Origin: Synechococcus sp. KORDI-49
GTDB lineage: Bacteria; Cyanobacteriota; Cyanobacteriia; PCC-6307; Cyanobiaceae
Direction of reading: 5' to 3'
Length of the DNA stretch: 64,000 nucleotides
Assembly (NCBI RefSeq): GCF_000737575.1
Contig: NZ_CP006270.1
Location: 1,987,163-2,051,162, forward strand
The notes below the pieces were generated by a model. It searched no databases. It saw nothing but the letters and a program-made list of their open reading frames with translations, and was not told where the DNA came from. The translations under genes were made by a program, and so were the position numbers. This document shows, one piece after another, positions 53,738-64,000 of this stretch. Numbering within the stretch: position 1 is the stretch's first letter; every line of letters begins with the position of its first letter.

Positions 53738-54200
53738 GCTCGTCCAGGAGGTTGCTGCAGGCGTCCTCCAGCAGATCCAGCACATGCTCGAAACCGGCTT
53801 CACCTCCGTAATAGGGATCCGGAACTTCGGTTTCAGTGAAGCGCTGGGCGTAACTCAGCATCGGCCGCACGGTCGCTGTGGCGCGGTGTCCGGCTTCCCG
53901 GGCCAGGCCCTGAACGGCCGTCAGGTTGGCGTCATCCATGGTGAGGACCAGATCGAAGTCACTCAGGTCGTCCAGGCTGATTTGACGAGCACGGCTTGGC
54001 AACTGGATTCCGCGACGGCCGGCGGCCGCCTGCATGCGCCGGTCAGCGGGGTTGCCGGTGTGCCAGCCACCGGTGCCGGCGGAATCCACCACGAACCGGT
54101 CGCTGAGTCCCCGCTGATTCAGCAGGTGCAGGAACACCCCTTCGGCGGCTGGCGAGCGGCAGATGTTGCCAAGGCAGACGAACAGCAGCTTCTGAGTCAT
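53721..54200 (-). CDS. Low-molecular-weight protein tyrosine phosphatase
   Basis: The 159-residue protein has the catalytic loop VCLGNICRSP (C9 to R15) and the acid loop VPDPYYGG near residue 125, so it should be active on phosphotyrosine. It is last in the run cpcT-cpcE-cpcF-phosphatase; its start overlaps cpcF by 4 bases. A phosphatase at this end of the rod region is known in marine Synechococcus, but its role in phycobilisome biology is unproven. It overlaps panC-cmk tail to tail by 17 bases. Confidence 0.93.
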   Translation of the reverse strand: MTQKLLFVCLGNICRSPAAEGVFLHLLNQRGLSDRFVVDSAGTGGWHTGNPADRRMQAAAGRRGIQLPSRARQISLDDLSDFDLVLTMDDANLTAVQGLAREAGHRATATVRPMLSYAQRFTETEVPDPYYGGEAGFEHVLDLLEDACSNLLDELSSQA

Positions 54201-54832
54201 CCGATGGACAGGCGTTGGAGGGCGAGCTGGGCCCGCAGACGCACCACCTTGACATTTTCACGGCATTCCTCTGACAACTCCTGCAGGAGCGCGCACCCCC
54301 GATCTGCCAGGGGCTCTGGCGGTGGCGTCAGGCTGAGCCGTCGTTCCAGGCCGTAGGCAGCCGCATATCGCACCACCCACTCATCGTCACGGGCAGCGCG
54401 AAAGAGGGCGAGATAACAGCGCGACAGATCAGCCGGTGCCGTGGAACCGACGAGGTCGAGTTCAGCGAGCCCACGGGTCGCTGCACGTCTCACACTGGGA
54501 GCGATGTCTGCCTGGAGGGCGCGATCGAGCAGCTCCAGGCCCCTGGGATCCCGCAGGGCGGCGATGACCCGCACGACCCATGCTCTCGCGCCATAGTTCT
54601 GAGCATCAAGGCTCATCAGCAGGGTGGGGACGATGGCTCGGCCCAGAGCGATCAGCCCTTGCGTGGCCACGGCGGCAACCGCTGGATTGTTGTAACCGAG
54701 CACCTTGATCAAGGTGGGAGCCGCCGCTGGATCTTCCAGGGCGCAGATGGCCTGAGTTGCACGCACCAGCTCGGGAGTGGTTCTGGCGTCATCCAGGTGA
54801 CGGATGGCACTGTCCAAGGCAACCGATGGCAT
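54197..54832 (-). CDS. cpcF: Phycocyanin alpha-84 bilin lyase subunit, CpcF/RpcF type (HEAT repeat)
   Basis: The 211-residue protein is built of HEAT/PBS-lyase repeats (APTLIKVLGYNNPAVAAVAT, APSVRRAATRGLAELDLVG, DDEWVVRYAAAYGLERRLSL). With its partner at 54832-55602 it forms the heterodimeric E/F lyase that puts a bilin on Cys84 of phycocyanin alpha. Whether it attaches phycocyanobilin (CpcEF) or phycoerythrobilin (RpcEF) cannot be decided here. Start and end overlap the neighbours, so the four genes are coupled. Confidence 0.85.
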   Translation of the reverse strand: MPSVALDSAIRHLDDARTTPELVRATQAICALEDPAAAPTLIKVLGYNNPAVAAVATQGLIALGRAIVPTLLMSLDAQNYGARAWVVRVIAALRDPRGLELLDRALQADIAPSVRRAATRGLAELDLVGSTAPADLSRCYLALFRAARDDEWVVRYAAAYGLERRLSLTPPPEPLADRGCALLQELSEECRENVKVVRLRAQLALQRLSIG

Positions 54833-55602
54833 CAGAGCAGCCTGTCCATCACATCGAGAATGGTGCTGTCACCGCTCTGTTCGGCAAGACCTCTCAGCGC
54901 CACCAGTTTGAGACTGCTTTCAACCGTTGCCGCCTCAATGGCCGGCAGCGAAGCAGTCCAGCCCGTGGCCCCGAGATCAAGCAGGGCTCCGCGGCGTACC
55001 AGAGGTTCCGGATGCAGCAGCAGTTGCTCGAGTTCGGAAGCCCATCGCTGGTCTCCGGTGATCTGGAGCAGGGCCCGACAGGCGGCTGCGCGGATCAGGG
55101 GTCTTGGATGCTGGGTGAAGGGAGTGATCGTCTCAATGACGCTTGGCGTTGCCACCCCGATGGCTCCGAGAGCTTCCAGGATCGCTTCGCAGGGTTCCTG
55201 GAGCAGGGCCGATCCAGGTTGCTCCCGGCCCGCCTGCTCCGGCCCTCCGGCAATCAGATGGCACAACGGGCCGACGGCTTCGGTCGCCCGATGGAGCCCC
55301 AGGCTGCGTGCCGCTTCCTCACGGACGGAGTAATCAGAGGATCTCAGCAGAGGCAGCAGGGCGCTGAGAGCCGGTGCGTCCTGCAGCATGCCGAGAGCAC
55401 GGATGGCATTCAGAGCCACACCTCGGCGCTCTGGATCAACGGGAACCTGACTGAGCGCAGACAGGGTGTCGAGCAACAACGTCACCGCCTGCGGGTGTCT
55501 GCTGCGCATCCTCCCCAGCCACCAGGCTGCGTAGTACTGAGCCGGAACGTCCTCGGTCTGGCGGAGGTTGGCGATCACCTGAGCTTCGCTCAAAGGTTCC
55601 AT
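54832..55602 (-). CDS. cpcE: Phycocyanin alpha-84 bilin lyase subunit, CpcE/RpcE type (HEAT repeat)
   Basis: The 256-residue protein contains several HEAT repeats (PALSALLPLLRSSDYSVREE, AARSLGLHRATEAVGPLCHL, PLVRRGALLDLGATGW) as in CpcE. I use the ATG at 55602, in a TGATG junction with the cpcT stop, over a GTG at 55611. It should pair with the product of the next gene. If the strain makes R-phycocyanin II it would be named rpcE. Confidence 0.85.
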   Translation of the reverse strand: MEPLSEAQVIANLRQTEDVPAQYYAAWWLGRMRSRHPQAVTLLLDTLSALSQVPVDPERRGVALNAIRALGMLQDAPALSALLPLLRSSDYSVREEAARSLGLHRATEAVGPLCHLIAGGPEQAGREQPGSALLQEPCEAILEALGAIGVATPSVIETITPFTQHPRPLIRAAACRALLQITGDQRWASELEQLLLHPEPLVRRGALLDLGATGWTASLPAIEAATVESSLKLVALRGLAEQSGDSTILDVMDRLL

Positions 55603-56192
55603 CACAACCACTCCGCCGGCAAGTCATCACCCCAGCTTGAGGTCCGCTGGAATCGAAACGCTCCAGCGACCGACCCCCAGCATTGTTCGTTGGAGACGGG
55701 GTCGTGGCCTCGATCCAGGGTCGTCAGTTCATCCCCCCAGAGGTGAAACGTGCTGAAGAGCACGGTGTCCTTTCCGTTCCGATGCACGATGCACCGGCAG
55801 CCAGGTTCGATGGCTCCGTGGTAGCCATTGTCCTGTTCCAGTACCTGGTAGTGGCACTGGTCAACGGCAACAAGATCACCCTCGACAATCTGCCGTCGAC
55901 ATTCGGGATCAAATGTCGCAGAGGCAAAGCGGGACGGATCGCGGAAGGCGTGATTCCAGAGTTTGATCACACCTGGGGATTGCTCCTCAGCCCGGATCAT
56001 CCGCAGCCTGTAGGGATTGCTCGGATCAACCGCGTAAGTCTGTTCCAGAAGGATGGATCCGGGCCTGAGATGGTCCAGTGGGCGATAACGCAGAAAGATG
56101 TGGGAATAGAGCGGTGGGTTGTCGAAGGCCTGCTTCTGATTGCTGTATTCCCCACAGAGCAGGCTGAGAAAACGACGCACGGTGGAAGTCAT
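55602..56192 (-). CDS. cpcT: Phycocyanin beta-153 bilin lyase, CpcT/RpcT type
   Basis: CpcT attaches a bilin to Cys153 of the phycocyanin beta subunit. The 196-residue protein starts MTSTVRRFLSLLCGEYSNQK and shows YSHIFLRYRPL, LLEQTYAVDPSNPYRLRMIR and the C-terminal SNEQCWGSVAGAFRFQRTSS of the CpcT/CpeT family. It lies just after the cpcBA terminator and heads the lyase run that serves the same protein. Confidence 0.88.
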   Translation of the reverse strand: MTSTVRRFLSLLCGEYSNQKQAFDNPPLYSHIFLRYRPLDHLRPGSILLEQTYAVDPSNPYRLRMIRAEEQSPGVIKLWNHAFRDPSRFASATFDPECRRQIVEGDLVAVDQCHYQVLEQDNGYHGAIEPGCRCIVHRNGKDTVLFSTFHLWGDELTTLDRGHDPVSNEQCWGSVAGAFRFQRTSSWGDDLPAEWL

Positions 56193-59584: not shown

Positions 59585-59800
59585 TCAGGCGTTTGCCATG
59601 GTGTCCCGTTGCTTGAGCAGTTGCTCGAGCACCTCTTCCAGCCTCTGAAGCTCAGCGTGTTCCGCGACCGTGGCGTCAATCCTCTTCTGGGGGAGCTTCA
59701 GCTTCTTGCCCATGGCGATCACGTCATCGCGCAGGCGGTTCCGGTAGGCCTCGAGCTCTTCGATCGAGTCTTGAAGCTCCTGAAGCGTGGGTTCAGCCAT
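59585..59800 (-). CDS. Small coiled-coil protein of unknown function in the rod region
   Basis: The 71-residue product (MAEPTLQELQDSIEELEAYR to LKQRDTMANA) is almost entirely charged helix with heptad-like leucines, and has no cysteine or membrane span. It is the first gene of the run leading to the lyase, pebA and pebB and is divergent from cpeB. Small unknown genes are reported in this region of marine Synechococcus; its role is not known to me. Confidence 0.7.
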   Translation of the reverse strand: MAEPTLQELQDSIEELEAYRNRLRDDVIAMGKKLKLPQKRIDATVAEHAELQRLEEVLEQLLKQRDTMANA

Positions 59801-60738
<938 letters not shown>

Positions 60739-60782
60739 GTCAATCGGGTTTTCCCATTTCCTCAACACCAACCTCCATCTAA

Positions 60783-61289
<507 letters not shown>

Positions 61290-61318
61290 GCTGCGAGTTC
61301 AAGTCATTCATCAACCAG

Positions 61319-61344
61319 AAGGAGGCCTTCGGGCCTCCTTTTTT
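61319..61344 (+). terminator. Intrinsic terminator after cpeBA
   Basis: A 9-bp stem (61319-61327 with 61332-61340) is capped by the stable TTCG tetraloop and followed by a T run to 61344. It would sharply end the cpeBA transcript before the linker gene, implying that the linker has its own promoter. Confidence 0.95.
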
Positions 61345-61631
61345 GTTGCCTGGTTTGTCTTGTCGTCTTCCTTAGTCTCGTTTTCTATCATCGAGAACTG
61401 TGAGATCTCGATGGAGAAGAGTTTCTTGAACTGTCGCGCATTGGAGCGTGGCAAACCCCAACGCCTCCTGGGAGGCATGGCTGGATTCTCTTGTGGCTTG
61501 GAAAGAGAGTGGTTTTCAGATGGATGTTGCCAGTATTTTCACAAAAGTATGAGCTGCGTACTTTAAGTAGCAATAAGAATCCCGAAAAAATTCTAGTTGG
61601 GTAATAAATTGCGTGTAGTCAACCAATCTCC
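61345..61631 (+). promoter_or_regulatory. AT-richer leader region of the rod linker gene
   Basis: No supported gene lies in these 287 bases. The base composition shifts to more A and T than upstream. A TAATAA box at 61602-61607 is a possible -10 but has no good -35, so control may depend on an activator. There is no purine-rich ribosome site before the linker ATG. Short reading frames here are poor in cyanobacterial coding character. Confidence 0.45.
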
Positions 61632-62501
61632 ATGCCTGCAATTAAGCTCAAGCGAGACTTTACCGATCAGAATCGGGTTTCGTTCGCGGTTTCAAACTCT
61701 CGGGATGCAGTCAAGAGTGCTGCATCGAATCGGGGTAAGGCTTCCAAGAGCACCGCTGAGTACAAGGAGAACCAGTGTGGCTCCATGGGGATTGGAGCAG
61801 GTCCCCGCATTCATGAGATCTGTCCGTTCTCTTCCGTCAATCATTCCTATGCGGCAACGGGAGATGGCGCTCTGAATAATGCGATCTCGGCTGCTTATAA
61901 GCAGGTGTTCGGTAATATTGGAATCGCTAATAATCAAAGGCTTTCCTCCCTTGAGGCTTTTCTGCGGGATGGCCGAATCACGACCCGCGATTTCATGGCA
62001 GGCCTTGTGAAGTCTGACCTTTATAAGGAAAAGTTTTTCTTCGCTGTCTCGCCGATGCGTGGCGTCGAGTTGACCACCAAGCATCTTCTGGGTCGTCCTC
62101 CGATCAGTCAAGAGGAGGTTGGTTCCGCGATCAAGCTGATTGCTGATCATGGATTTGATGCTTTTGTTGATCAATTGGTCCGATCTGAGGAGTATCTGGA
62201 AACGTTTGGTACGGATACAGTCCCATACCTGCGTGGATTCAAGTCAGAGGCGCGTTCCTACTGCTCGACATTTGTCAACATGGTCGAAATATCGCCTGCT
62301 AATGCCAGCGCTGATCATGTGATGTACTCAGGACCTCTGCTGGTGAAGCGTTTGACTAAGGGGCGTTCGGCTCTTTCGGCGGCAGCCTCCGGATTTGTTG
62401 CCGATACCACGGAGTTCTCCTACACGAATGCCGTCAACAATCCTAGAAATGCTGCTTTCCGGCGGATGTACGCAGGAAAGTTTGACTACAGGCTTTATTG
62501 A
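61632..62501 (+). CDS. Phycoerythrin-associated rod linker, gamma-subunit type (MpeC-like)
   Basis: The 289-residue protein has a PBS linker (Pfam PF00427-type) domain from about residue 75 to 240 (AAYKQVFGNIGIANNQRLSS, GRITTRDFMAGLVKSDLYKE, FFFAVSPMRGVELTTKHLLG). It has an N-terminal extension with Cys49 in KENQCGSMG. Cys49 is the published bilin site of the gamma subunit of phycoerythrin II in Synechococcus WH8020, so this linker probably carries a phycourobilin. It is AT-richer than its neighbours and flanked by terminators. MpeC, MpeE or another gamma-type linker cannot be told apart here. Confidence 0.87.
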   Translation: MPAIKLKRDFTDQNRVSFAVSNSRDAVKSAASNRGKASKSTAEYKENQCGSMGIGAGPRIHEICPFSSVNHSYAATGDGALNNAISAAYKQVFGNIGIANNQRLSSLEAFLRDGRITTRDFMAGLVKSDLYKEKFFFAVSPMRGVELTTKHLLGRPPISQEEVGSAIKLIADHGFDAFVDQLVRSEEYLETFGTDTVPYLRGFKSEARSYCSTFVNMVEISPANASADHVMYSGPLLVKRLTKGRSALSAAASGFVADTTEFSYTNAVNNPRNAAFRRMYAGKFDYRLY

Positions 62502-62512
62502 TTTGCCTGTGA

Positions 62513-62547
62513 GCTTAAAAAAGCGGGCATGGCCCGCTTTTTTAAGC
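62513..62547. terminator. Bidirectional intrinsic terminator after the linker gene
   Basis: A 16-bp perfect stem (62513-62528 with 62532-62547) has a G/C-rich apex and A-run/T-run flanks on both arms, with a 3-base loop. It ends the linker transcript and would also stop any leftward transcript. Confidence 0.93.
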
Positions 62548-62733
62548 TGTCTCACTGTTGAGGTGCAGGAGAGTCAGGCGATGTTTGAAGTTGACAGTAT
62601 CTCTTTGGGGCTTCCCGTCTTGATGTTCGTCATCATGCTTTGCCCCCTCGAAGATTTTGTGATCTGTTGACGGTGCGCCATCAGTTTTGAGAGATTGACT
62701 TTTGGCCCCTGAAGTTGTTTGAGCCTTGCTCTG

Positions 62734-63387
62734 ATGGATAGTCAACCGAATGTTTCCGGCTTGGAGATGACTTCGCCGGCGCAGTCCGTCCGTCCGGATC
62801 TGGATGCGTTGTTTGCGGACCTTGCTCACCCCAATCCGCATCTGCAGACCCAGGCCTACCTCGCGATGGTGGACCACTGGCCCGATGAAGCACTGCAGAG
62901 GCTGCTGACCCTTCTGGATCAACCTGATGTTTCCCTGCGCCGTGCGGCAGTGCGAGGCCTCGGGGCCTTTGGCGCGGTGGCCCTGCGTCCTCTGGCTGAG
63001 CTGTTTGGCATGAGCCCGGATGGAACGGTGCGGGCCAGTTGTGTGAAGGCCTACGCCCAGATCGCATCCAACTATCCAGATCAGAGCTTTTCTCCAGAGG
63101 CGATGGCTGTTCTTGAGACCGCACTCTCTGATGAGTCTCCAGTGGTTTCTCAGTCAGCCGTGATGGCACTGGGGCAGGTCGGCATTCAGGCCCTCCCTCT
63201 TCTGATCCGCATTTGCAAGGGAGACAACATCGCCCATGTCCAGTCTGCGGCCATGGCTCTCGCCGAGATCCCTGATCCCCGGGCTGAAACCTGCCTGCGG
63301 GAGGTGTTCGACGACCCTGCGACGGATCCGTTGTCCCGTCAGATGGTGGAGGCATCGCTTGGACGTCTGGACAGCCGCCGCTCATAA
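62734..63387 (+). CDS. cpeZ: Phycoerythrin bilin lyase subunit/chaperone CpeZ (HEAT repeat)
   Basis: The 217-residue protein consists of HEAT/PBS-lyase repeats (DVSLRRAAVRGLGAFGAVAL, GTVRASCVKAYAQIASNYPD, SPVVSQSAVMALGQVGIQAL) and ends with EASLGRLDSRRS. CpeZ assists CpeY-type and other lyases in attaching phycoerythrobilin and helps fold phycoerythrin. ATG at 62734 or 62767 are both possible. The upstream 186 bases hold three TTGAC words (62591, 62667, 62695) but no clear full promoter. Confidence 0.85.
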   Translation: MDSQPNVSGLEMTSPAQSVRPDLDALFADLAHPNPHLQTQAYLAMVDHWPDEALQRLLTLLDQPDVSLRRAAVRGLGAFGAVALRPLAELFGMSPDGTVRASCVKAYAQIASNYPDQSFSPEAMAVLETALSDESPVVSQSAVMALGQVGIQALPLLIRICKGDNIAHVQSAAMALAEIPDPRAETCLREVFDDPATDPLSRQMVEASLGRLDSRRS

Positions 63388-63422
63388 AAAACGGGAGGTC
63401 AGCCCCTCAGCTGCCCTCCCGT
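63386..63422 (-). terminator. Intrinsic terminator for the leftward CpeY-type gene
   Basis: Arms 63415-63422 and 63391-63398 form an 8-bp G/C-rich stem, and on the minus strand the stem is followed by six T. It lies about 70 bases beyond the stop of the CpeY-type gene and abuts the cpeZ stop, so cpeZ and that gene converge on it. The plus strand has no T run after the stem. Confidence 0.87.
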
Positions 63423-63491
63423 GGTTGCGCATGCAGTGCTCGACGCGAACACTACATATTGACATTACGTTAAAGAACGGAACAAATCCGC

Positions 63492-64000
63492 TCAAGCGTG
63501 CCTTTCAAGTTGGTTGACCGCGAGACGCAGAATCGGTTTCACGGCGTCATCGGGTTCGCTCTCACAGCGGCTTTCAAGAGCCTGGATCGCAGCCGGATCC
63601 TCGAGTTTCATCAGTGAGAGAGCCGTGTTCTTGCGAACCAGTGGCGAACCATCGTTCAGGTTTGGCAGAAGCAAGGGCAGGGCCCACTGGCTGTCGTTCA
63701 GCTTGCCCATCAACGTGCTTGCTTCAGCGCGCACTTCCTCATCCTCGTCTTTCAGTGCATCCGTCAGGAGCTGGCGGGCATCTTCGTCCCCCAGGTTCTG
63801 AATTTGATCACCAAGGGCTCCGATCGCTGCGGTGCGGATGCGTGCATGAGGGGAGCGGGCGGCCTCTTTCAGGGCCTCAGGCGCTCGAGCTCCCACAAAA
63901 GACAGTCCCCAGCTCGCCAGCCCCGTCTGCATGGGGGTGTTGGAAGGGTCCACAAGAATCTCCAACAGACCCTCAACCGCATCCGCCCCGATCACGGCCA
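63492..64000 (-). CDS. cpeY: CpeY/MpeY-family phycoerythrin bilin lyase, C-terminal part (cut by window edge)
   Basis: The reading frame runs off the right edge; 167 residues from an internal ATG at 63995 are visible. They are HEAT/PBS-lyase repeats (ARIRTAAIGALGDQIQNLGD, EEVRAEASTLMGKLNDSQWA, PLVRKNTALSLMKLEDPAAI) ending NQLERHA. CpeY puts phycoerythrobilin on Cys82 of CpeA; MpeY and MpeZ are close relatives of about 400-440 residues. Convergence with cpeZ supports CpeY, but MpeY is not excluded. Confidence 0.75.
   Translation of the reverse strand, partial: AVIGADAVEGLLEILVDPSNTPMQTGLASWGLSFVGARAPEALKEAARSPHARIRTAAIGALGDQIQNLGDEDARQLLTDALKDEDEEVRAEASTLMGKLNDSQWALPLLLPNLNDGSPLVRKNTALSLMKLEDPAAIQALESRCESEPDDAVKPILRLAVNQLERHA

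Follow-up and report, generated by a model that had tools for sequence, protein, structure and literature searches.

The gene at 61632..62501 (+) of the window, the 64,000-nucleotide stretch analysed here (1987163-2051162 of the single 2,585,813-base contig of this genome), is almost certainly mpeE, which encodes a PEII-associated rod linker of low-phycourobilin (type 3a) marine Synechococcus and occupies the locus that it has in strain WH7803. A gene of this kind at this place is known biology. The open reading frame starts with ATG and codes for 289 amino acids with a single match in the Pfam scan, the PF00427 domain at residues 80-201 (E 2.8e-41; 140.9 bits against a cut-off of 28.7), and at the level of sequence the linker fold is settled. 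The N-terminal extension that precedes the domain carries a cysteine at residue 49, in agreement with the sequence-only reading of a gamma-type linker with the Cys49 bilin site.

The upstream neighbours are indeed the phycoerythrin I genes cpeB (60184..60738, +; beta subunit with histidine at residue 141; NCBIfam equivalog NF058508, 334 bits, scanned on 60187-60735 with the start at 60184 checked separately) and cpeA (60795..61289, +; alpha subunit; NF058506, 300 bits). Downstream lie a gene for a HEAT-repeat E/F-type protein (62719..63387, +), a putative cpeZ judging from its position and size, and a CpeF/MpeV-family lyase gene on the opposite strand (63492..63998, -), likewise named from position and size, which is cut by the window end and in full encodes 306 amino acids (genome 2050654-2051574). 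The same order, cpeBA-linker-cpeZ-CpeF, is found in WH7803 (L059) and in the MAGs CO36386bin_29 (L058) and G032 (L057), whose linkers at this locus share 76%, 77% and 84-85% identity with the window linker, respectively.

The name was anchored on WH7803. Its genome has ten PF00427 hits, of which three fall within one 1008-aa frame (ApcE by size) and two within one 562-aa frame (MpeD). CpeC, CpeE and CpcGII were recognised as BLAST relatives of genes from the present genome, CpeE being named by position, and an unlinked 254-aa frame is CpcGI by elimination. Table 2 of Six et al. 2007 (PMC2246261) gives for WH7803, besides apcC, only the linkers apcE, cpcGI, cpcGII, cpeC, cpeE, mpeD and mpeE. 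Because the cpeBA-cpeZ linker is the sole one left once the names in that table are assigned, it must be MpeE, and by sequence the window linker is its orthologue. The two share, in addition to the locus, 76% identity over 286 residues, both bilin-motif cysteines and the same upstream box, and the same GC content (0.512 in WH7803); the WH7803 protein is three residues shorter, and no functional difference is visible.

In a tree of 42 linkers of our choosing, where MpeE was identified through the WH7803 gene and MpeC by position instead of through labelled reference sequences, the window linker falls inside the MpeE clade (27 rows, support 96/89), which includes neither MpeC nor the MpeD N-terminus; the linker phylogeny that the sequence-only reading had proposed as a check thus places the gene with MpeE. 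The group of rod-locus MpeE sequences is moderately supported (94/93 in the 42-linker tree, 73/83 in an MpeE-only tree). MpeC is a PEII gamma/linker with a bilin at Cys49. It shares with the window protein the PF00427 domain and a C-x14-C motif but forms a separate clade, and in other genomes its gene adjoins mpeA, at a site that has no linker here. The MpeE proteins encoded outside the rod cluster (G012, G021, MU1642 and others) show 69-73% identity, the cysteines and the upstream box, whereas their neighbours differ and their GC content is higher (0.57-0.62).

The region is an intact PEI and PEII rod cluster that continues beyond the window. Among the 13 phycobiliprotein-family matches in the genome, two form a second phycoerythrin pair, mpeA (genome 2053828-2054325) and mpeB (genome 2054367-2054918), located 2.7-3.8 kb past the window end at 2051162. 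Their names follow from their position and from comparison with the equivalently placed pair of WH7803 and G032 (identity 99-100% for MpeA, 96-97% for MpeB); in the NCBIfam scan, the two matched the models for CpeA and CpeB. Together with a fused two-domain MpeD-like linker, mpeBA lies within 12 kb of mpeE. Farther along the cluster there are genes presumably of the CpeT, CpeS, CpeE, MpeD, CpeC and CpcG types, named by position and similarity; the CpeT- and CpeS-type genes have no NCBIfam match. The earlier impression that mpeBA is missing was therefore a window-edge effect, and since the pair lies just beyond that edge, a PEII-type linker beside phycoerythrin I genes is ordinary: no blue-pigment linker is stranded here without its phycoerythrin.

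Nor is Cys49 peculiar to this protein. All 40 PEII-type linker rows of the alignment (27/27 MpeE, 5/5 MpeC, 7/7 MpeD N-termini and one unlinked linker) have Cys49 and Cys64 (C-x14-C) and neither of two CpeC rows does, so that Cys49 characterises the PEII linker family and its presence here is expected. In MpeD, phycourobilin (PUB) is held by thioether links to two cysteines of this N-terminal region, and the PEII linkers of WH7803, including the mpeE product, were detected by mass spectrometry (Six et al. 2007, PMC2246261). MpeE is thought to carry one phycourobilin, a blue-light pigment, and the same is predicted for this strain; for WH7803 MpeE this is taken from what that paper says of PEII linkers in general and from the legend of its Figure 5, not from a table cell. 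By this account, the PF00427 domain would sit inside the PEII hexamer while the C-terminal part joins the hexamer to the next disc. One phycourobilin would be attached via Cys49 and probably also Cys64, absorb blue light and hand the energy down the rod.

mpeE probably forms a transcription unit of its own, as the sequence-only reading had suggested in noting terminators on both sides. By inspection and folding, a hairpin followed by a T-run, characteristic of an intrinsic terminator, lies both after cpeBA (61319..61345, +) and after mpeE (62512..62548, +), with folding energies of -21.7 and -27.5 kcal/mol for the 40- and 45-base stretches that contain them, respectively. A consensus terminator scanner missed both, in our opinion because their T-runs pair within the stem; the four terminator-like sites that it reported are at chance level (mean 2.9). 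As the sequence-only reading noted for the ribosome site, there is indeed no Shine-Dalgarno-like tetramer upstream of mpeE. Of 32 orthologue rows, in which some genomes are counted twice, 30 lack it as well, and neither of the two that have it belongs to the cpeA-cpeZ locus.

A candidate promoter element, the 15-base box TTAAGTAGCAATAAG, is located at 61563..61577 (+), 69 bases before the mpeE ATG. The pattern T[TG]AA[GC]TA[GT]NN[AC]TAAG occurs 69-74 bases before the start of close MpeE orthologues at either location, that is, in 4/4 rod-locus rows and 12/12 close rows outside the cluster as opposed to 0/14 other rows, and in 3 of 32000 mononucleotide shuffles, the sole type of control. This pattern was widened after the sequences had been viewed, so its 16/16 is post hoc, and many of the rows are near-identical relatives; an earlier, narrower pattern matched 3/4 rod-locus rows, 2/12 close rows outside the cluster and 0/14 others. 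The box is present in a single copy in the window and absent from the loci L012, L013 and L106, and is thus not seen ahead of other rod genes there.

The base composition of mpeE departs clearly from its surroundings. Its GC content is 0.509-0.510, whereas 867-bp windows taken every 50 bases across the stretch average 0.637 (sd 0.031), and the 16 of 1263 such windows that are equally AT-rich all overlap mpeE, which bears out the earlier description of the gene as AT-richer. That description had been coupled to a proposal that a foreign phycourobilin-bearing linker was inserted by transfer beside phycoerythrin I in a genome without PEII and places phycourobilin on phycoerythrin I rods. The AT-richness, the adjacency to cpeBA, the separate terminator and the empty site found in two relatives (G012 and G021, below) fit such an event, but the mpeBA pair and the MpeD-like linker in the cluster refute its premise, and the same gene with similar base composition occupies the same place in WH7803 and the two MAGs, where mpeE has GC contents of 0.512 (WH7803) and 0.522 and 0.515 (the MAGs) beside cpeBA genes of 0.59-0.63. 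We therefore regard this proposal as very improbable. AT-richness and the missing Shine-Dalgarno tetramer are no sign of recent insertion, because the former is common to the same-locus orthologues and the latter to 30 of the 32 rows. What stands of the insertion is that the gene has changed place. As for an ordinary local linker, the outcome named at the time as speaking against insertion, phylogeny and composition do match those of the locus linker in three other genomes, although the gene is not always there.

Even less probable is that mpeE is a silent, unexpressed relic. The lack of any sigma-70-like site in 59800-63500 would agree with this, but cpeBA has none either; the AT-richness and the missing Shine-Dalgarno tetramer could be read in the same way, yet the tetramer is missing from nearly all orthologues as well. 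Against decay speak the frame, which is intact at (near-)full length and 66-85% identity in the 15 closest relatives of the genus, the conserved upstream box, the gene's own terminator and the detection of its product in WH7803 (PMC2246261).

The identification as mpeE leaves its relocation to be described. In G012 and G021, the cpeA and cpeZ matches are separated by 175 and 174 bp, versus 1343-1490 bp in four genomes with the linker. Both carry mpeE elsewhere, and their clusters resemble the one described here; that of G012 has four HEAT-repeat lyase-type genes with 68-86% identity and an MpeA with 100%. Since close relatives with a similar cluster have an empty cpeA-cpeZ site, mpeE has changed place within the group; on sequence grounds, the empty site shows this change, not its date or direction. 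By eye, a similar hairpin follows cpeA in G012 and G021, though no linker is present there. The 12 close MpeE orthologues outside the cluster have GC contents of 0.57-0.62; paralogue hits (L092, L105, L002) were left out of MpeE in this comparison, and L104 has no linker. In G015 and G016, mpeE lies at the opposite end of the rod cluster beside aplA, has a GC content of 0.48-0.50 in AT-richer loci and lacks the box. At the loci L076-L083 and L093, where mpeE stands outside the cluster, no other rod gene was seen within 9-10 kb around it. At three of these loci in G012, G021 and G022 (L076, L077, L080), the gene lies ~3.4-4.4 kb from an open reading frame that resembles an orange carotenoid protein, as judged by eye from its N-terminus. 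Yet another location for this type of gene is seen at ~4.2-5.2 kb of the loci L090 and L091 (G006 and G005), where an MpeE-like linker that is deeply diverged and forms a long branch by itself lies beside rpcA. A search for a vacated native site with the open reading frames that flank mpeE in G012 placed their relatives in this genome at 126655 and 195349, not adjacent, the second query being only part of a 283-aa frame.

The box, being kept inside and outside the rod cluster, suggests that mpeE moved with its promoter. On our reading, mpeE has changed place in this group and seems to have taken its promoter box along, and the order cpeA-mpeE-cpeZ accompanies one of the versions of the type 3a cluster. 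A further possibility, to which we lean slightly, is a block transfer of the type 3a cluster, including mpeE between cpeA and cpeZ, between the lineage of WH7803 and that of this genome; mpeE would then be a passenger, and foreign in no other sense. This concerns the origin of the gene and not its function, and is compatible with its identification as mpeE. In the RpoB tree, WH7803, CO36386bin29 and G010 stand on one side (99/95), and this genome groups with G032, G015, G020, G024, G005 and G006 (98/97), apart from WH7803. In the MpeE tree, a clade of 17 rows (100/100) unites WH7803 with this genome and leaves out G020, G003 and G001; similarly, the MpeD N-terminus of this genome clusters with those of WH7803, G012 and G032 (100/99), those of G020, G015 and G003 falling elsewhere. 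Such a conflict between RpoB and MpeE over WH7803 is expected if rod clusters are exchanged, and the abstract of Six et al. 2007 (PMC2246261) states that rods evolved independently. On the other hand, an AU test with a single constraint, a genus-only MpeE group, did not reject trees that keep 15 genus rows, including this genome, apart from WH7803, CO36386bin29 and G010 (p 0.183), and G010, from the same genus as this genome, also groups with WH7803 in RpoB.

The sequence features of the cluster point to the low-PUB pigment type 3a. CpeB and MpeB both have His141 (numbered from the MLDAFSR start), a combination described as the type 3a signature (PMC9705338). No linker lies between the CpeF/MpeV-family gene and mpeA, and mpeC is thus absent there; the unlinked linker of the genome falls outside MpeC in the tree, though on a long branch. 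The search for mpeU and mpeZ elsewhere in the genome, which the sequence-only reading had recommended, revealed no further CpeF/MpeV/MpeU-type gene, other matches being partial (30-32%), and only two CpeY/MpeY/MpeZ-type genes, both in the cluster and 28% alike. Against the CpeY model (cut-off 600), the 444-aa lyase gene beside mpeA scores 313 bits and the 441-aa gene after mpeB 187 bits, and because of its higher score the former is better called CpeY-type and the latter MpeY-type. At 54197-54832 and 54832-55611 there are two separate adjacent open reading frames, the first with 214.7 bits against the CpcF cut-off of 220.

According to Six et al. 2007 (PMC2246261), type 3a PEII most likely has a PUB:PEB ratio of 1:5, the PUB site not being settled at that date. 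Some PUB-attaching activity is therefore expected in type 3a strains. Mahmoud et al. 2017 (PMC5318389) describe no lyase for PEII linkers as known as of 2017, and among the titles and abstract openings covered by our literature search none names one. A tentative suggestion, which we rate somewhat below even, is that type 3a MpeE carries PUB even though the searches turned up no isomerase gene of the MpeU or MpeZ type and the histidine at residue 141 of both beta subunits marks CpeF as a plain PEB lyase, with PUB made by an enzyme encoded by a neighbouring gene (CpeY-, MpeY-, CpeF-, CpeZ- or CpeS/T/U-type) or by MpeE itself.

The unlinked PEII-type linker (genome 610966-611985, -; 340 amino acids from the first ATG; G000:C1, loci L002, L106 and L156) combines the two-cysteine bilin motif with an unusual end. 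Its C-terminus matches the hydrophobic tail of the CpcGII of this genome with a local score of 93, attained in 0 of 5000 shuffles, whereas the tails of four other linkers score 12-22 in the same comparison, and 8 of 33 other genomes of the genus have a 59-61% relative that matches to the last residue. Used by itself as a query against solved structures, the tail gave nothing relevant. The protein may correspond to the MpeF or MpeG described in Six et al. 2007; the sections of that paper (PMC2246261) available to us make no mention of a CpcGII-like tail on either, and no title or abstract opening in the literature search reports such a tail on a PEII-type linker. Hydrophobic tails of the CpcL type are considered to attach rods to the membrane or photosystem I (PMC10053587), and, judging from its sequence, the unlinked linker could hold PUB-bearing PEII rods there.

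Combining the two-cysteine motif with a CpcGII/CpcL-like tail, the unlinked linker is a better lead than mpeE. For its part, mpeE can be traced as a single gene that moves as a unit and may bring its own promoter, and a type 3a genome such as this one leaves fewer candidates for the enzyme that attaches PUB to PEII linkers.
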